64,000 nt of DNA from Isoetes taiwanensis (lineage: Eukaryota > Streptophyta > Lycopodiopsida > Isoetales > Isoetaceae): NCBI GenBank assembly GCA_021234155.1, contig JAJEKV010000052.1:4073606-4137605 (forward strand), given 5' to 3'. Positions within the stretch are counted from its first letter, which is position 1. Each line of letters starts with the position of its first letter. The notes under the pieces were generated by a model that saw nothing but the letters and a program-made list of their open reading frames with translations, ran no database searches and was not told the origin of the DNA. The position numbers were made by a program, and so were the translations under genes. Below are positions 6,926 through 25,125 of this stretch, piece by piece.

Positions 6926-7808
6926 ATGAAGAAAGTAATTGATGCCACTTGGAACTATAAAAAAATGTTACACAAAAAGCATGAGTTATGGATCAAGAAG
7001 TGTGGGGATGCTGGCTATAAAATTAAATGGTTCAAATTCTCTCCTAGTGGCAAATGCTGGCAGTACATTAGTCAGCAAAAGTTCATTGATATAAACATTT
7101 GGCTTTTAACCAACTGTTACATTGCAGTAGGGATAAATACATGGAGACAGGACGGTGGTATTCCAATGGGGTTCCCTTGTAGTCCGGGATGGTGTAACCT
7201 ATACCTTGCTTGGTTTGAGCTAATGTTTATAAAGGAACTGGCAAAGCAAGGTAAGTTTGATCTTATCAACAATTTCAAATACGTATTTAGGTACATGGAT
7301 GATTTGCTGGCCATAAATTGCCCTATGATCAGGGATTTCTTAAGTAAGGGACCTGTCTCTAATGAACAGTCGTTACACATATACGACTTAGATAAACTGG
7401 GAATCAAAGAGGAAACTATTTTTGCTAATAATGGCCCTTTGAATCAATCCTTTGGACAGGCTGCTAATTTCCTCAATTTAAGAATTGAGATAGTAAACAG
7501 ATCACATGGGGTTTACAGAACGGTCAAATATGATAAAAGGGACTGCCTTCCATTCACATCCCTCAAATTTATTCATGCAGATGGGTGCAGACCTTACCAT
7601 CAATCAAGAAATGTTATCCTATCACAGGTTCTACCTTGTTTATACATAAATTCCTGCCATACTGGGGCTGCAAAGGATATCATCGAACTTATACATATAC
7701 TGTGGTGGTTTAAACCGTAGAGTGATCAAGTACATCAAGGAAAATACTTTTCCTGGAATAAAGTTTGATACCAATGAGGTTATTGATGCCATTGACAATT
7801 ACTTCTAG
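6926..7808 (+). pseudogene. Reverse transcriptase relic, possibly Penelope-like
   Basis: The 264-codon frame 6926-7720 shows reverse transcriptase hallmarks in order: GIPMGFPCSP (residues about 78-87, motif B), then FRYMDDLLAIN (121-131), the YxDD catalytic motif, then YDKRDCLPF and a conserved downstream segment ending in SRNVILSQVLPCLY. This arrangement, with a DKRD segment after YxDD, reminds me most of Penelope-like elements, but the family assignment is from memory. The upstream motif A with the first catalytic Asp is not visible, so the 5' end is missing. The last part continues in another frame to TAG at 7806-7808 (RRVIKYIKENTFPGIKF), so there is one frameshift near 7690. No endonuclease domain was seen. 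Confidence 0.75.
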
Positions 7809-11099: not shown

Positions 11100-12570
11100 T
11101 GATGTCGCTTATCGTTTGGAATGCCAAAATTAGCCTAGGGACCAAGTTACACGGTCAGGTTTGCAAAAAAATGACACACTTACGCCCTACATTGCAGTAT
11201 TCAACAGCCACCTCCTAGGCCAATTGACTATGAGTGTGTTGGACATGAGATAGTTTGGCGCTTCTTCGAGAAGGGGTGGCCTTCTGGCCACAAAACTTGG
11301 TCCCTAGGGCAATGTCGAGGTTCTGAGTCCATTGGCAAAGCCGAATCACGGTTCCGGAGAGGGAAAGTTGCCCGTCCGTCGCCAGGGCCTTCGGGAGAGG
11401 ACTTTTGGGGCAAGCTGCTTCCGGGTGGTTTTTAGGGTCCGTGCTCTGGCGTCAACACCCCCCCTCTACGTTGAGACACGGCGCAAGCTCCTAGTCGAAT
11501 CTGACAAGGATAGAGCCTCCGAAATGTAAACCCTATGAGTTGCCAGGTTCTAGCAGGTTTGCGTTTTGGGTGCCGAGTTTTGGTTTTTTCCACTTGGGAC
11601 ATGGTCGATCACATGCAATTGAGAACGCGAAGCAAGGGGAACTAACGGAATGGAGTTTGGACCTGTACTCCTCCTGTTGTGCAGTTAGAAGTCAAGGCCT
11701 TGCAGTAGCAAGACATTCGTAAATTCGTAATTAATGCATAGTACGGACTTAAATTCTGATTTTTTGTCAGCTAGCTTCCTAAGTCATCGCCAACATACAG
11801 GCCAACTTTCAAAAATTTTGGATAAGGTTTAGATCAAATAGTTTGCATTAGAACGGTCCGGGCAGCCTGTTGTTGGGCAGCCGAGATGGCACACTTGCCC
11901 AAGTCAAACAAGGCCAGGACCTTGCAAGGCCTTCTCATTAGAGGGGAGAGTCTGAACGCCAGGAGGCGAGCCCCAAAAAGCTTCACGAGGCAGCCTTTCT
12001 CGGCGGCGCCGGGGGGCGTACGCTAAAGACCACACTTCCGGATCTCGGTTCCCGTATCCGACCGTTGAATCCTTTGTTCAAGGAACCTGGTCTGAGAAGG
12101 TTCAAAAAAATCCAACATCCGTCCGGGAGAACATATCAAACCGCGAAGCGTCCTGCGGGCGCCAGTGTAGAAACCAAAGTATTTTGTCGTTCGGACATTG
12201 CGGAGGCTCCGAAATGGCGATTCGACTTCGCCACATCGTCCGGAATGCCAAAATTACTGTAGGGACCAAGTTACACGTCAGTTTTGCAAAAGAAAGAAAC
12301 ACTTACGCCCTACATTGCAGTATTCAGCAGCCACCTCCTAGGCCAATTGACTACGAGTGTGTTGCACATGAGATAGTTTGGCGCTTCTTCAAGAAGGGGT
12401 GGGCTTCTGGCCACAAAACTTGGTCCCTAGGGCAATGTCGACATTCTGAGTCCATTGGCAGAGACAGATCACGGTTCCAGAGAGGGGAAGTTGCCCGTCC
12501 GTCGCCAGGGCCTTCGGGAGAGGGCTTCCGGGTGGTTTTTAGGGTCCGTGCTCTGGCGTCAACACCCCCA
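11100..12570. repeat. Tandem repeat, ~1.12 kb unit, 1.3 copies (locus 1)
   Basis: The block starting AATGCCAAAATTA at about 11120 recurs at about 12242. It stays similar for about 330 bases, through CACTTACGCCCTACATTGCAG, CCACCTCCTAGGCCAATTGA, AACTTGGTCCCTAGGGC and GAGTCCATTGGCA, to CTGGCGTCAACACC. The complete unit is therefore about 1.12 kb and GC-richer than its surroundings. A diverged locus of the same unit occurs at 23.8-25.1 kb. Short frames in the unit (such as 12593-12351 minus) are conserved between copies only as far as the DNA is. It could be a satellite-like array or a small element with direct terminal repeats; no tRNA primer-binding site was seen after the repeat. Confidence 0.8.
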
Positions 12571-12989
12571 ACAAAGTTTAAAATGAAACGCACTTATTTG
12601 CTGCAAACACACTTCAAAAGGAATCTTTGAAAGATTGCCTAAAATTCCCTTAAAAAAGTCCATTTTTAAGATTTTTTGTGACAGGTGTGACAATTTAAGC
12701 AATTTAGGTACCATTTTTGAGGGGTTGATTGAACATAACTTTCATGCAAAAATTTGAACATAACTTTCATGCAATTTTCATCCTTCTAAACTAGAACAAA
12801 AAATAATTACTTTTATAAAGTGTAGCAAAAAAGGGGCAATAAAAAAAATAGCAAGGGTAGTAGAGTGACAAAGAAGTGATATATTCATGGTTGTGAAAAT
12901 TGTACAAAATTATGAACAAAATTGTCAAAAATATAGGACATTTTGACAAACACTCATCACCTGCACTCTCTGTTCTTTACATGTTCGAG
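12571..12989. other. AT-rich spacer
   Basis: There is no coding frame. A short local repeat, GAACATAACTTTCATGCAA, occurs twice around 12732-12775. Confidence 0.5.
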
Positions 12990-15900
12990 TCATCGGACAA
13001 ACTTACATTTTGCAGCAAGATCAGGATGCACCTCATCCTCCAACTCATTTAATCCTTGATCACTTGAGCCTTCATCCTTAGCTTCACTCTCAAAACTGGA
13101 TGTACTCGAACGATCTTCTTCCTCTATCTACAAGTGAGTCTTCACCATCATCTTTTTTTGCCACCTTTCTAGGTTGTTTGTCTAATCCACATGCCGACCT
13201 TATTAAAGTTTGAGTGACCATACGTAACTTATTAGCAGCAGTCAGAACAAAGTCATATGCAAGAACCTTTACTTCAGCTAGATCTATGACAGCAGTGTTT
13301 TCTTTGGACTTAGCTCTCTTTCCCACTCCTGTTTTTACCATCTCCAAAGTATAACTCCCACTGAAAGCATTGGCAGCATTCGTTCTCATCCAGTGCACTT
13401 TTAATTGAGTGGGAATTCCATCCTCTCTTGTTATCTCCAGTACTTTAGCTAGCCAGAATGGCTTCCCAGATTCATCATTATGTTTGGGACAGCTATGAGC
13501 ATTCCTTTTCGAATCTCTCGAGACTGAACCCGGATACTCGAGCAACTTGTTGTCTTTGCGGCGTCTGGGGCGGTGTACATGACTCGCTCATCTTCATCCG
13601 AGCTAGCCAATATCTCTACATGTTCCTCTTGATTCTCAACTTGCATTGGGGAGAATTTGCCTAGATGGCCGATTGAATGTAAGCGGTCTTCGACCTTGTA
13701 ATGAAGCTTGCAACATGTCCGTTGTCTTGAGAAAAAAGCGAGGCCACCATAAAGCATCTCGCCTCCCCAAAGTGGTTAGAGCACGATGAATACTTGTCTC
13801 AATAAAATACAATGATTTGCTTGAGTCAAATGCTCTTCCCTCTTTTTTACTCTTTTGTGATTTCTTTCAAGCTTTTTAGAGGCATTTGCTCTCTGCAGAG
13901 AGCATGGAACTACTATTGGGGATGGTGCTTAATGAATTGAATACACGCTGGTGGCACCTTTGCAAGGATGTGGCATATTTCTTTCCTTGTAAGATGGCCT
14001 TGGCATCTACAAGTGAAATTTTGATCGATCTTTGAAATGTAATGTTTCTCAAGGGCTCAATAGCACAGTGACCCAGTTGATCTCTCCGAAAAATCCATTC
14101 CTTGAAATCATAAGTTTCTTCTAATAACTCGATGTCTGGATGAGGATTGTAGGAATCTTGGATAACCTCAATCATTGCTGGTGGTAGGTCGAGAGCTTTT
14201 TTCGAGCAAGGCGTTTAGAGAACCTCTTGAACATCTGATCAATTTGATCGTGTGTATGACCAACAAGCAGGAAACCAATCTTCACCTTCTTGAAGATTTG
14301 TTCCTCAACTAGCATAGCACAGTAAGCAAACAACGCCTGATTCTTATTTTATCTTGTCGTGTTGTCTAGCTGAAGATATAGAACCGGTGGTATATGTTCT
14401 AGATTGGAAAGAAGCTTATTCAATATTGTGATAGTGAGATTTGGATCAGCATGAATGTTTGGATAGTTTAAGAATGCCTTGCAAGATACCATAGCACCAA
14501 CAACATGCAGGTGTATGAAATCTTCTTCAGCAGCATCCTTAGGCACATTGACAAAATGTGGTAGGGTGGTCTTCTTCTGGTCCATTCCATCAATAACAAC
14601 CGATATGTAGTTGAGTGGTTGCTCCAGTGCTTTCTTCCTATGTTTTGTCAATTTTCTCCTTTCTAAAGATTGTTGTTCTCTTGTGCTTGTTCAGTTTCTC
14701 TTTCAATGCATCTGAAATGAAAACATGTTTAGGAAAGAACCTACTTTTAAGTAGAACTAGGCAAGAACACGTTCTGGAAGCTTACTTTTGGTGTGAAGTG
14801 TCCTTGCATTTTGTCTCTGAGCTTTTAATTCAGAGCATGTAGCACAAACAGACATCCGGTGCTTTCTAGGAATGGACACGCGAGAAAACTCTTTTTTCCA
14901 GAGCACAGTGAAGTATGAGTAGCATACATGTCGTGCACTAGCCTCAACACACATGTCCTTATAATTATCGTAGACTTCACGTTTAGTGAAGTTGTCACTC
15001 AAGTGGTACATAGGGCTGTTAGGGAGTTTCTCGCAAGACTCCTTAAAGAAACCTTCCATCCAGGAAACACATTGAAGGGCATGAATTCTGGATATACCTC
15101 CGAATGGCGTAGTCATTAATGCCCGGATTCTTGTCAAGCCTTTTTTCTCAGCGGTCAAGTCGTCTGCTGCCTAAAGCATGAATCAATTTGAAGGCCGTTT
15201 GACAGACGGTGTGGCCACCAGCTGTGTAAGTAAACCTTTCACCATAATCTGGCCTAATATTGAAGGCTAAGTAGCCCCTTTGGTCTAGCAGAGTCATTGA
15301 ATCAGAACTATCACGAATCAACCTCAATTCCTTTAGTCCAATCTTAAGCAAACAACGTTGAGAACAACAGTGCTTTGTATGTGTTGCCCTCAAGTGAGCC
15401 TCATCCATGAGTTTCTTTCTTCTAACGGTTGTACATGCTTTCTTGTGTAAGTTACGCTTAAGATTCTTACTTGCAGGGGCTTTGAATTCGAACATGGAGT
15501 CTTGTGGCTTTGGTAGGTCCTCGTCTGAGAGATCAACATGAGGTGTTTCTTCGTCTGAGAGATCAACATGAGGTGTACATGTAGACGCTGAGAGGTTTGG
15601 TGTGGGCAAGTCCTGGGGGGAGGTGCTTTCCCTGCCTCTGGGAAAAAGTAATCGAGGTTGATGACGTAGTTGACCAGCTCCTGACGTGTCGTAGAACACA
15701 GGAGTTGCGTGTCGCTGACTGCTCCCACTTGTTGTAGTACCATTTAGCGAAATGGATGGAGTTGGCATGATTTGCCTCCGGGAATTTAGCCTACGGTGGA
15801 CTATGTGCGACGTGCTAAATTGAAGTGGGGTAGGTAGTCTGACCTCTCTAGCCTGTGGTGGAGTAAAACGTATTGGTGGGGGCAAACGACGTTCAGGAGC

Positions 15901-16087
15901 TGGGTGTGGTGGAGTAAATTGAACTGGTGGTGGAAGCCGAGGTGGTCGTGCTGGAGTAAACTCAACAGAGCTGGGGGTTTGAATATCGGAGGCAGAATTT
16001 TCGAGGCTACTTCCAGGTGTCAGTTGAGGAGGTGTGAATGTCATTGCAGGAAGTTGGAGGCTCTGCAGGTCTTTTTTCTCGAGCCAT
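12990..16087 (-). pseudogene. DUF7869-type transposase-like gene, broken reading frame
   Basis: Successive minus-strand frames add up to one protein. The N-terminus (16044-15148) has proline-rich PPxxFTPP repeats, then a Cys-containing region (HTKHCCSQRCLLKIGLKELR). Next come VCATCSELKAQRQ (14757-15158), ISVVIDGMDQ and LYLQLDNTTR (14651-14349), GHTHDQIDQMFKRFS (about 14229-14275), then GKPFWLAKVLEI...KVHWM, a BAH-like C-terminal part (about 13430), and an acidic tail ending at 12990. This order is what I know from DUF7869 proteins, considered transposon-derived, with D-x-x-D, D-N and G-H-T-H-D blocks as candidate catalytic residues. Breaks are a TAA at 14349-14351 where the family has a Glu after DNTTR, a one-base loss in an A6 tract at 14197-14202, and frame changes near 15160, 14760, 14680, 13490 and 13110. 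An upstream ATG at 16087 would be in frame if the A6 tract at 16072-16077 had one base fewer. Confidence 0.7.
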
Positions 16088-16110
16088 ACTCAGAAAGTTA
16101 GTGTCACATT

Positions 16111-16279
16111 GTATAAATTTATACGACAGAATAGCAGACGGTAAAAGTTTACACAGGGATGGTATAAATTTATACAGAGAAGGCAAACTTGAAGCGGCAG
16201 ACTGTATAAATTTATACAGAGATGGTATAAATTTATACGGAGGAGGGCAACATAGAAAAGAAACGGTATAAATTTATAC
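16111..16279. promoter_or_regulatory. Cluster of five GTATAAATTTATAC palindromes in the divergent promoter
   Basis: Perfect 14-bp palindromes start at 16111, 16162, 16204, 16225 and 16266. They lie 24 to 192 bases upstream of the minus gene's possible start and on the other side of the plus gene's promoter. The start-to-start distances (51, 42, 21, 41) are near multiples of 10.5 bp, which would put all sites on one face of the helix. Each palindrome also contains TATAAAT in both directions and could double as a TATA box for the minus gene. Confidence 0.8.
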
Positions 16280-16420
16280 GAAAACTCACAGACAGTTGTA
16301 TTGAAAACTTTATGGAGAAGCGCTATACAAAACGGCACTTAGCAGAGGTACTTAAGCCCAGCGCCGGCCACCCTATTTTCTATATACACAGCTCGTTGTC
16401 GAAGGCGCTCGCGGTGCGGC

Positions 16421-16427
16421 TTATATA
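16421..16427 (+). promoter_or_regulatory. TATA box of the plus-strand gene
   Basis: TTATATA is followed by a C-rich stretch and lies 56 bases before the proposed ATG at 16477, leaving room for a start of transcription around 16452. Confidence 0.45.
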
Positions 16428-16476
16428 CCCCCCCTTATTTGCTCTCTAGAACGTCTATACGCGAGTCCATACTGTC

Positions 16477-19400
16477 ATGGCCACGTAAGTCTACTATCCG
16501 TACTGTTTTAGTTTCTCTTTTGTTTTAATCTGTTAGAGTGTAATCTCTTTTGTTTTATACCGATATGGTTCTGGAACGGTATAAATTTATACCGCTCGAG
16601 CACGAGCGGTATAAATTTATACCGTTCCAGAACACAGTCGGTATAAATTTATACCGCAAGTGTTCTGGAGCGGTATAAATTTATACCGCTTGTGATCGAG
16701 CGGTATAAATATGTACCGTTCCAGAACACAGTCGGTATAAATTTATACCGCAAGTGTTCTGGAGCGGTACAAATTTATACCGCTCGACCAGAACCATTTC
16801 GGAATCTTGGTGTCTAGTGCTTAAAGAATGGTCCCGAACCTTAATATTTTAGTAATATTGTTAAGTTTTAAGCTTAAATGACACAAATAAAGTGTTAATT
16901 TAGTGTGGATTTTATGCCCTTTCAGTCTCTTTTTTTACTGTTTTTGTGTTTCAAAAAGTCGAAAAAGGTTATGTTTCTTGTATAAAAATGGTTTTTTTTA
17001 CGCTTTTTCCAACCCTAAGATCAAGTTTGTACACAGAGGCCAATCATCAAAGGCTGCACCACCAGAGCCACAGACTTATGAATTGAAAGAACAGACTTGG
17101 TACGTCCACAGGGGCGCAAGAGAGAGCAAACCCAATCGAGGTACCCTTTACTTGTGCCATCATTCAGGGAAGGGCAAGTACAAGTCTGATGATTATTACC
17201 CTGCTGGCGAAATTATAAGCCTTGTTACTACAGAGAACGATGATGAAGTTTTAATGAAGTGCATGCATGACAAGGGGGATGTCTACTATGTTCTGAATAG
17301 TAGAATGCTTAGAATAAGCATGTGCAAGCCCAAAGACGTGTATGATTACATTGCGGACAATTACAAGAACGGCTTTGTAAGTTATTCTTAGTTGCTTTCC
17401 ATATAAATTTATACCGTCATTCTCTTAACTTAACCCTGGACCTAGTAGAAATTTTGATGTCAGTAGTGCTGTGTGAAGAAAAACTGTTGGTCAAGGGTCT
17501 ATGGTACCCCCGTACTATCGAAGAGGAAGAGAAGGACGACCCTCCTCCTCTTCCTCTTCTTCTACTACTTCCTATAAGGACGCTAGGGTGATAAAAAAAA
17601 GGGCCATTCGAATACATTACATATAACGTTATGTATTTTAATTATAGCAAGTTTTTGATTGCCATCATTAAAGAAAAATGTCATTATTCGAGTGTACCAA
17701 AAATTCCCTCCATTTTGTTCCCCCTGTTTCTTGGCTAACCGAGTGGAGCAAGAATTGGTTTGTTTTCCGAAAATTGGTACTGCTAGATCGTTTGAACCCA
17801 CTCGGAGCACTGCATATCCGTGTGATCTGCCCCGTAAGTTTTGTTTTCTTTATTTTGTAGTTTTAATTTTCTGTGATTTCAGTCCGAAAATGAATTCAAG
17901 AAGTAACAGAACTGGTTCTATGGATTAAAAATCGAAAAGCGGTATTTTTCAAGCTACATCGACGTAGGTTTAACATGAATATAAACAATGTGTTTGGTTT
18001 AAGGTCTGATCTTCAAATATTTCATCTTATAAAATCAAATTTGTTGCTTTGTTCATTTTGCAGGTACTGTGAACATGGCAAAGACCCCAAAGAAGACACC
18101 AATCAAGGGTTCAAGAAAGTCTCCAAGGACCGGAAAGCCTCCAGCAAATAAGAAAGCTTCAAGTTCGCATGCCAAAAGGGAAATTTTACCTCGATGATAC
18201 CAGGTTTTCTCAGAAGGCGGCCTCGGACAACTGAATTTTTGTGATGTTTACGAAGGTATGATGCTATGGTAAGAGAGATATGGGGTGATGAAGCACCAAG
18301 CGGTATGGCTATAAGGATGATGAATTGATATCAAGTGGATGGAAGAATTACGCAAATGGTATGAATTTGCTTTTGGAAGAAAAGATGTTATGAATCACTA
18401 TGTGTCTCTCAGACTTGCGGCAAGGGCATTTGCATTGCATCCGAAAGGTGCGTATGGATTTGGGGAAGATGTCAAAGCATGGGCGGATCGAAGCAAAAGG
18501 ATTCTCGATCTATCTAGTGAGGTGGTGACAGTGAAATCTAGCAATGCAAATGCAAAAGCCCCAAGAACTTCAGCTAAGAGTTACACAAAGGAGCAATTAG
18601 AAGTTTTCAGTAACTTCTTAGACAGCAGATCTATTGTGAAAACATCTTTAAGCAAGAAATTAACCGAAAGTTAAAGGAAAGAAGGCAAGAGATCCTTGAT
18701 ACATTGAAGCACAAGGAAGGGAGAGAGCGGTTTACATTAGGTTGGTCCAGGAAGCAGAGAGGAATGTTGAAGCAAAAATGGCAGCATTGGAGGATCAACA
18801 ATCAAAACTGGACCAAACATCTGAAAGTGCAATAAGATTTCAGCACCTAAAATGGAAAGTTGAGGATGCTATCGAGCAAAAGGAATCTAGAATGCAGGAT
18901 CAGGCTGAGCTCCAGAAACATATTGACATGAATCTTACCGAATTGAAACATGTAGATGCAAAGATTGAAGCTATATCTGTTGATATGAGCTCAGCTGAGG
19001 CAGGAGACAAAAAAATTATGGAACTCAGGGAATTTTTAGAACATTCCTCGATCCTTACTTTACAGCCCCCTCCTCTCCAGTCTACAATTCTTGCAGATCA
19101 GATTATTGTTCAGCCTTTTTCTTCATGTACATATTGTGAACAATCTTTTGGTGTGAATCCAGTGGTTCTGGCACCCTGCAGACACCCTTATTGTCTGCTG
19201 TGTATATCCTATCTTGCTAGCACAAAGATCTCATGTGTTGATCCTGACTGCTCATGGAATAGCAATTTGCCTGTAGCACTTGACCGCTTTGCAACAAAAG
19301 GTTAGTACATGTACATTTGAATTACAATTTCTTTTCTTATTTTAATAGTTAGATTTTTTTTTGCATGAAGGTTTTAGGCTTGCATTTACATTGAGTATTT

Positions 19401-23767: not shown

Positions 23768-25125
23768 TTAAGCTTGTAGCTTTTCCAGATGCTTGAAACT
23801 TTTTGCTTGTCGCGGAAAACTTACGGAGTCCATTGGCGGCGAAGGCAGATCCGCGGTTGAGTCCATTGGCGAGCAGTCCATGGCGTTACGAGTCCATTGG
23901 CGAGGCGATCCGCGATTCCGGGAAGCGGTACCCGTCGTAGCGGGGCGCGGAGAGGACTTTTGGGGCAAGCTACTTGGGTGGTTTTAGGGTCGGAGTGCTG
24001 CGGCGTCAACACCCTCGTGAGAACTACGGCGCCAAGGTCCTAGTAGTCAAATCGACAGGATACAGAGCCTCGGCGTAAACCCTATGAGTTGCCGGGGTTC
24101 TGGCGGGGTTTACGTTTTGGGTCACCAGTTTTAGTCTTTTACGCACCCAGGACATGGCGAAATCACGAAGCAAAGGGAAGCTGGCCAGATAGGTTGGACA
24201 CGTACTCTCCGTTGTGGCGGTTAGAAGTCAAAGGGCAGCTTTGGGTAGCAAGACATTACGTATGATGAATGCATAGTATGGACTTAAATTCTGATTTTTG
24301 TCATTCAGCTTCAATAGTCATCACCGACATACAGACCAACTTTTCAAAAATTTGGATAAGGTTTATATCAAATAGTTTGCATTAGGCAGTCAGGGCTGAC
24401 TGTTGTTGGGGCGTAGAAGATGGCACACTTGCCCAAGTCAAACAAGGCCGGACCTTGCAAGGCCTCCTCGTAGAGGAAAGTCTGAACCCAGGAGGCAAGC
24501 CCCAAAAGCTTCAGAGGCTGACCTTTCACATGGCGGTGGCTCACGCTAGAACCACACTCTCGGATCACGGGTTCTAGGTATCCGTACGGGTGAATCCTTG
24601 TTCAGGAACACAGTCGAAGGTCAAAAATCCAACATCCCGTCAGAGAACATATCAACCCATGAGAAAGCGTCTACTGCGAGCAACGGTGTAGAAACCAAAG
24701 TGTTTGTTTTATGGATTGGGACGTGCGGGCTCGGAAATGGGTTCGACCCATACATCGTCCAGGTAAAATTACCCTAGGAACCAAGTTACGGTCGGTTTTG
24801 CAAAAGAAATAGACACTTATGCCTTACATTGCGATTGATGACCACCTCCTAGACCCGACTCGGTGTGTTGCACAGCATGAGAATGGTTGGCGGCTTCTTG
24901 AGGGTGGGCTTGGCCACAAAACTTGGTCCCTAGGGGCGATAATGGGCGTTACGGAGTCCATTGTGAGAATAGATCATGGATTCGGGAAGAGTTGCCATTA
25001 AATTAGCCGGGGCCTTCGGTAGAGGACTTTTGGGGCAGCGGTAGCAAGACATTAAGTAAATTAAGTAATTAATGCATGAATGCGGGACTTAAATTACGAT
25101 TTTTTTGTCGGCCCCAGCTTCCTAA
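23768..25125. repeat. Tandem repeat, ~1.1 kb unit (locus 2, diverged)
   Basis: The order of landmarks is the same as at 11.1-12.6 kb: GAGGACTTTTGGGGCAAGCT, GGCGTCAACACC, AAACCCTATGAGTTGCC, GGCACACTTGCCCAAGTCAA, then a second start with CTTACATTGCGATTGATGAC and AAACTTGGTCCCTAGGGGC. The second unit lacks about 0.55 kb, jumping from ACTTTTGGGGCA to GGTAGCAAGACATTA at about 25034. GAGTCCATTGGCG is amplified in the first unit (23827-23906). Divergence from locus 1 is high and rich in one-base indels. Confidence 0.8.

Follow-up and report, generated by a model that had tools for sequence, protein, structure and literature searches.

The palindrome clusters of a 64,000-nucleotide stretch of the Isoetes taiwanensis genome (Lycopodiopsida; assembly GCA_021234155.1, contig JAJEKV010000052.1, positions 4,073,606 to 4,137,605; the whole stretch is called the window below) reside in a DNA transposon with terminal inverted repeats of about 30 bp, 4-bp target duplications and a full length of about 8.7 kb. 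The element carries a gene for a DUF7869 domain protein, a putative transposase, and a divergent gene, here called gene B, with two palindrome arrays flanking their common promoter. Related DUF7869 families of the same genome possess differing palindromes at matching places (TATAAATTTATA, TATGAATTCATA, TATTCCGGAATA, TATGCGCGCATA), sorted by transposon clade. Judged from sequence, the palindromes are probably element-owned, family-specific binding arrays for a dimeric DNA-binding protein encoded by the DUF7869 transposons themselves.

The palindrome arrays and their transposon

Ten exact copies of the 14-mer GTATAAATTTATAC occur in the window, all at 16111-16748 (expected 0.00; dinucleotide shuffles 0/100), and the 12-nt palindrome core with at most one mismatch matches 12 times vs 0.73 expected, the matches at 16768 and the lone 17402 included. 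The extended 18-mer CGGTATAAATTTATACCG is found exactly at 16577, 16607, 16639, 16671 and 16733, in the second cluster only. The palindrome clusters described in an earlier note on this DNA are real, as no shuffle equals the ten exact 14-mers; of the twelve copies counted there, ten are exact and the total requires two near-copies near 16705 and 16767.

In an all-against-all blastn of the loci studied, long common units end at one point, which in the window copy is 12570. The element ends are inverted repeats of the pattern AACAA[AG]GTTTAAA[AT]TGAAACGCACTTATTT, for which 980 + 992 genome matches with at most one mismatch are found vs 0 for the reversed control. Among the 100 end matches listed, all of them exact, 11 facing pairs span 8.4-8.9 kb and 4 about 2.2 kb, with a few other facing pairs, of 3.5 to 9.4 kb or more. 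A 4-bp target duplication borders all five elements with both ends (L006 AAAT, L011 ATAG, L013 AATC, L009 TTGA, L069 CACT), L069 being a full element of 8,672 bp. Its terminal inverted repeats (TIR) and its target duplication of constant length agree with a cut-and-paste DNA transposon of the TIR order, and DUF7869, a domain of unknown function, can now be assigned to a mobile DNA element whose ends are defined and whose target duplication is 4 bp. In the window the element is truncated, and blastn homology to other copies begins at about 12570 and ends at or just before 17539. The features are as follows.

12570..17539, minus strand: truncated DUF7869 transposon copy; right end kept, left ~3.7 kb gone, genes broken; blastn matches to more than 10 other copies
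12570..12599, plus strand: terminal inverted repeat at the DUF7869-side end, AACAAAGTTTAAAATGAAACGCACTTATTT; identical end in 12 loci, window included
14202..14651, minus strand: DUF7869 domain region (putative transposase); stop codon after LDNTTR; Pfam PF25273 E=5.5e-11 for 14349-14651
15148..16087, minus strand: N-terminal part of the DUF7869 gene; start codon at 16087 by homology; frame broken in the window copy
16111..16279, strand not applicable: array C; five exact palindromes (16111, 16162, 16204, 16225, 16266) and a degenerate one near 16141, directly upstream of the DUF7869 start
16380..16429, strand not applicable: promoter-like region between the arrays; TATA-like CTATATAC and TTATATACC; from an alignment of 19 copies
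16477..16484, plus strand: gene B exon 1; ATGGCCAC followed by GTAAGT (16477-16490), with at most 3 mismatches in 19 of 20 copies examined
16577..16784, strand not applicable: array B in gene B intron 1; seven sites spaced 30-32 bp, five exact 18-mers and two variants
17020..17376, plus strand: gene B exon 2 (..QTYELKEQTWYVHRGARE..); open reading frame 16903-17391; splice sites from sequence
17402..17413, strand not applicable: lone palindrome core in gene B intron 2; several other copies have a lone site at a comparable place
17573..19305, plus strand: start of the RING-gene repeat, outside the element; L070 and L071 share homology with the window beginning at 17573

The association of palindrome and element has been approached from both sides. 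Starting from the motif, an element end or a long stretch of homology to the element is present at 11 of 12 hand-picked palindrome clusters, the exception (L001, 3 kb of sequence) matching the element through the array alone. Starting from the ends, exact ends on contigs C1-C23 mark 16 elements among the matches listed (two of them by both ends), and in 15 of these the 14-mer or 18-mer is found inward of the end, no more than about 6 kb away; the exception, C21:111746, is without an 18-mer among the matches listed. The short elements L006, L011 and L013 were found via the motif, and the count starting from the ends includes short elements as well. An even scatter of the palindrome, named in the earlier note as the observation that would speak against an association with particular genes, was checked in part, on the same contigs C1-C23, and is rejected there in view of this association with element ends.

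The genome (1.66 Gb, 1110 contigs) is rich in these sequences. With each pattern read backwards as control, the 14-mer has 12,556 exact copies vs 17, the 18-mer 4,415 vs 0 and the type C palindrome introduced below 3,720 vs 0; type D with GT/AC outer letters has a single copy, outer letters varying in this type. A search for DUF7869 returned 9,907 first-look candidates; 150 of them were scored, and every one of these matched, with no match in 14 control genomes (0/14).

The divergent gene pair had been described in the earlier note as DUF7869 and RING, with the second palindrome cluster in intron 1 of the RING gene. This pairing is rejected, as the match to other element copies ends at 17539, the RING unit begins sharply at 17573 beside the truncated element, and the palindrome is absent from all three other RING-copy upstream regions (L070, L071 and L072, the last giving no blastn match to the window at the threshold applied). 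The RING exon is a repeat in its own right, with 1,274 first-look candidates and several copies 96-97% identical. The intron in question belongs to the transposon's gene B, as seen from its exon 1 and donor site in 19 of 20 copies; an acceptor-like string at exon 2 is found in 12 of 20 copies (at most 4 mismatches). The true divergent partner of the DUF7869 gene is gene B.

The window also contains copies of another repeat at 11154-11409, 12277-12532 and 24791-24832, and as the right end of the element (12570) lies about 38 bp beyond a repeat copy, the DUF7869 element was probably inserted into or beside that repeat. In L007 (7944-9501) sequence matching the type C loci L026/L027 directly abuts a type A element, a nested or abutting insertion. 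Further away, at 6926-7720 of the window, an open reading frame of 264 amino acids has a weak reverse-transcriptase (RVT_1) match under the curated cut-off.

Family-specific palindromes and their conservation

The loci were chosen by hand: 11 palindrome clusters with flanks (L006-L016), 12 DUF7869 matches including the top six of the scored list (L017-L028), and 20 further DUF7869 loci picked across the 150, of which only 2.8 kb were taken, 1.0-3.8 kb upstream of the domain. In the first twelve DUF7869 loci, GTATGAATTCATAC occurs in two, and arrays of TATTCCGGAATA inside a longer palindrome occur in three; the longer palindrome is GTGTATTCCGGAATACAC in L026 and L027, and in L028 the TATTCCGGAATA sites are weaker (1 exact, 3 with at most one mismatch). 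Of the 20 additional upstream regions, 13 contain a 12-nt palindrome in three or more exact copies and 16 in two or more, one of the latter, L045, being an unrelated ACCACATGTGGT pair; a fourth palindrome type, TATGCGCGCATA, surfaced among them. Even two copies are reached in 0/1000 mononucleotide shuffles and in 0/37 window chunks outside the element. The shuffles of the window (0/100) and of the upstream regions (0/1000) rule out a chance origin of the palindromes.

When the 32 DUF7869 loci are typed by at least two sites with at most one mismatch, 26 can be assigned, 14 to type A, 2 to B, 8 to C and 2 to D, leaving 6 with none. The half-sites are CGGTAT-AAA, GGTAT-GAA, AAGTGTAT-TCC and a weaker G[TC]CTAT-GCG; the TAT/ATA arms are constant and the centre is variable. 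In a tree of the DUF7869 proteins, types C, D and B each fall on one side of a branch, the C grouping with low support, and type A falls into a single group with strong support, which also includes five array-less copies. Five of the six array-less loci have element homology broken off or displaced before the array position; the sixth, L045, has no match to the type A references. Since centres change at matching positions within one genome and are tied to clade, the reader would be encoded by the element and not by the host, and since the palindromes are perfect it would be a dimer.

The 23 array C sequences compared are 91.6% identical in palindrome columns vs 66.3% in other columns, the former value being inflated where repeats may be aligned out of register; two sequences each stem from L022 and L033, the second L033 piece possibly being misplaced. 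Compared by blastn (E up to 1e-5) with the longer elements L069, L012 and L016, the non-autonomous copies of about 2.2 kb have only the ends and the palindrome array in common with them. The common parts of L006, L011 and L013 are about 65 bp at one end, stretches in the last ~445 bp at the other end, and the array; the two short elements examined for coding capacity, L006 and L011, have no reading frame above 121 codons. Parts common to non-autonomous and autonomous elements are likely needed in cis.

These observations bear on a neutral reading, in which the palindromes are satellite-like tandem repeats expanded within the element without binding function. The window arrays have a 94-bp higher-order repeat and palindrome copy number differs among elements, which speaks for it. 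However, the palindromes stay constant while other columns diverge, families with different palindromes use matching positions, and short elements with otherwise unrelated interiors retain them, so that we regard this reading as very improbable. As an observation on array expansion, one element copy (L022, 4180-6142) contains duplicated promoter-plus-array blocks with more than 30 palindromes.

Some findings weigh against family-specific binding arrays as such. Palindromes could have become homogeneous through tandem duplication, with no selection for binding. The type B palindrome is rare genome-wide (64 copies vs 11 in the control), and as type B elements also contain some type A (TATAAATTTATA-like) sites, the switch of palindrome is not absolute. 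Moreover, the loci studied were hand-picked from the best-scoring 150 of 9,907 DUF7869 candidates.

Candidate binders and alternative readings

Each family would encode a dimeric protein recognising a TAT-NNN/NNN-ATA palindrome with a family-specific centre. The candidate sites form at most three arrays, one next to the start codon of DUF7869, one within intron 1 of gene B and, in several longer copies, one directly 3' of the ParB-like exon of gene B. Binding might tag the element in cis and so serve its expression, its evasion of silencing or its transposition. The proposal of the earlier note, a multi-site operator or transposase-binding array, is upheld in kind, as the array travels with the transposon, persists in non-autonomous copies and differs from one transposon family to the next; the pairing of DUF7869 with RING and a role as TATA boxes do not stand.

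The chance that the binder is the ParB/sulfiredoxin (Srx)-like product of gene B rather than the DUF7869 protein is put slightly below even, gene B being preferred of the two for its ParB-like domain and for the arrays in its introns. The gene B motif GG[TN]HS[YF]KAR..L..DEEAK...SHN.DN was spotted by eye before testing. With NCBIfam, 4 of 13 gene B members match the ParB family TIGR03764 (L027, E=6.5e-4), and with Pfam 7 of 13 match DUF6551, which we take to be ParB-like (best 0.0039). With PHROG, the L018 protein matches a ParB-like partition protein (E=0.1 and 0.21), the L017 protein has no ParB match, and the L027 protein matches a family of unknown function (E=0.0051). A tblastn search of 72,556 plasmid records with L027 gene B returned 10 records at E<=10, 7 of them in genes annotated as ParB family protein (two in plasmids of equal length, which may be one). 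A profile of four plasmid ParB proteins, picked because they already matched gene B, aligned to gene B in hhalign with a probability of 66.8% (P=5.3e-5; 63.3% and P 6.9e-5 with the other alignment), and two controls gave 0.2% (P 0.39) and 0.1% (P 0.42). ParB and Srx folds are related. The assignment of gene B as ParB/sulfiredoxin-like is built on matches which are each weak and all convergent.

To be counted against this assignment are the L027 score for TIGR03764 of 19.4 bits vs a cut-off of 143.75, matches to the unrelated phosphodiesterase family yfcE in 2 of 13 members (best 0.0046) and to the unrelated IgA0_D2 in 5 of 13 (best 6.2e-4), the weakness of the ParB-annotated plasmid matches (E 0.09-4), a phage search with L017 gene B giving 2 records, neither annotated ParB, and a PDB search in which sulfiredoxin (E about 2) is outranked by the unrelated DHFR-TS (0.7). 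No helix-turn-helix is found in the Pfam, NCBIfam and PHROG scans of the resolved, earlier exons of gene B. A pattern scan of viral and prokaryote contigs confirmed no gene B relatives. No match to ParA was seen in the element reading frames scanned, which cover part of the exons only, and none to a DNA methyltransferase domain in the gene B exons scanned, C-terminal exons excluded.

The DUF7869 protein is itself a possible binder, in which case the arrays would be a transpososome enhancer inside the element or an operator for autoregulation. The palindrome type tracks the DUF7869 tree, array C is found shortly before the DUF7869 start codon, and the arrays are retained in short copies which need only mobilisation. 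The arrays are, however, internal (0.5-5.1 kb from one end in L069), unlike usual end-binding sites, and the third array stands after the ParB-like exon of gene B, away from the DUF7869 gene; this reading is held to be unlikely, yet deserving of attention. As to an encoded DDE/D transposase, DUF7869 proteins retain VIDGMD, QLDN and GHTHDQID. A PDB search with the DUF7869 profile gave 0 matches, the single-sequence fold of the window piece is poor (predicted local distance difference test, pLDDT, 41.5), and Pfam found DUF7869 and no MULE domain in the element reading frames scanned. As a side observation, the C-terminus of the DUF7869 protein of L026 (1349-4309; ..GRPFWIAKVLDTIKEEGLVTKLKIHWL..) by eye resembles a chromatin-reader-like (Tudor/PWWP-type) fold.

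An improbable alternative is that host transcription-factor sites or TATA-type promoter elements have been captured and amplified by the transposon. The arrays flank a promoter-like region, and type A sites stand in near-helical steps, in that 245 of 355 gaps differ from a multiple of 10.5 by no more than 1.6 bp (0.30 expected if uniform). As element copies are related, the evidence for helical phasing is weak; in type C it rests mostly on a single spacing (42), and in type D it is not supported (4/12 gaps). Four palindromes at matching positions in one genome with the same host factors speak against this alternative, as does the location of TATA-like sequences elsewhere. The earlier note had considered the palindromes as TATA boxes in both directions; this is rejected, as 16 of the 19 element copies aligned have a separate TATA-like TTATATA in the interval from one array to the other and the sister palindromes TATTCCGGAATA and TATGCGCGCATA contain no TATA box.

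Least probable of all is a structural role as hairpins or cruciforms in DNA or in transcript 5' leaders, for which speak the perfect symmetry of all four types and the folding of single units as RNA at -4.4 to -8.3 kcal/mol, and against which it is to be said that short loopless palindromes make weak hairpins and that any compensated sequence would do, yet the palindromes are near-uniform within a family and the TAT/ATA arms are kept between families.

Going beyond family-specific arrays read by an element protein, a eukaryotic system resembling ParB-parS might be envisaged in these transposons, in which the gene B product, as a ParB/Srx-fold protein, would nucleate on the family palindromes, spread or cluster and mark the element as self. 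Such self-marking of the whole element could serve expression, anti-silencing or pairing of ends. This extension is tentative and rather unlikely in our estimation; if true, the centre switches (AAATTT, GAATTC, TCCGGA, GCGCGC) would be specificity switches splitting one transposon into non-cross-reacting families.

Relation to known systems

Short binding sites in many copies within a DNA transposon are familiar from En/Spm (CACTA), which the candidate sites of the DUF7869 element resemble in this respect. The TnpA sites of En/Spm are subterminal, non-palindromic 12-mers, and CACTA target duplications are 3 bp long. Sola1 elements have 4-bp target duplications, and this length alone constitutes the likeness to the Sola superfamily.

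In the open-access literature, no description of a DUF7869 palindrome-array system was found, nor a paper naming DUF7869 or one on the palindrome by title, subscription papers being mostly outside the search; the nearest is a study of Ectocarpus. According to the available portions of that study, the transposon Sola1-1 carries a ParB-like accessory gene, with similar genes in green and red algal transposons, and ParB-like proteins are suggested to possibly bind and modify their own element (PMC12477816). With gene B as a putative ParB-like gene on the strand opposite to the transposase, the DUF7869 element resembles Sola1-1, each being a large eukaryotic DNA transposon. Unlike gene B, in the scanned exons of which none was detected, the Sola1-1 ParB-like protein adds a DNA methyltransferase domain, and the available portions of the account name no binding-site array or target site (PMC12477816).

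In bacterial ParB-parS, a ParB-family protein acts on short palindromic sites, as the source reports in the part drawn on here (PMC7053999). The short palindromes near gene B, in its introns and beside the promoter region, are candidate sites of a like kind. Unlike in the bacterial system, no ParA or helix-turn-helix is recognised in the exons scanned, the site sequence differs, the host is eukaryotic and the domain match is remote.

The closest parallel to the arrays themselves is Arabidopsis VANDAL, in which, as far as the part of the account used here extends, the element-encoded accessory reader VANC binds short tandem motifs in non-coding VANDAL DNA and causes DNA methylation loss, the motifs differing per family; they are non-palindromic 8-9-mers, YAGTATTAY and AGTTGTCC (PMC5735166). 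As in VANDAL, the DUF7869 element has family-specific motif arrays in its non-coding DNA. Unlike VANDAL, it has perfect palindromes of 12-18 bp as candidate sites, DUF7869, 4-bp target duplications and no MULE transposase (VANA) domain in the reading frames scanned. What would be new here are family-specific arrays of the VANC kind in a DUF7869 transposon that makes 4-bp duplications, the reader possibly resembling that of ParB-parS. With thousands of copies of the candidate sites at matching positions of one genome, in four related spellings that each go with a separate protein clade, a direct test becomes possible of how a selfish element distinguishes itself from its relatives.
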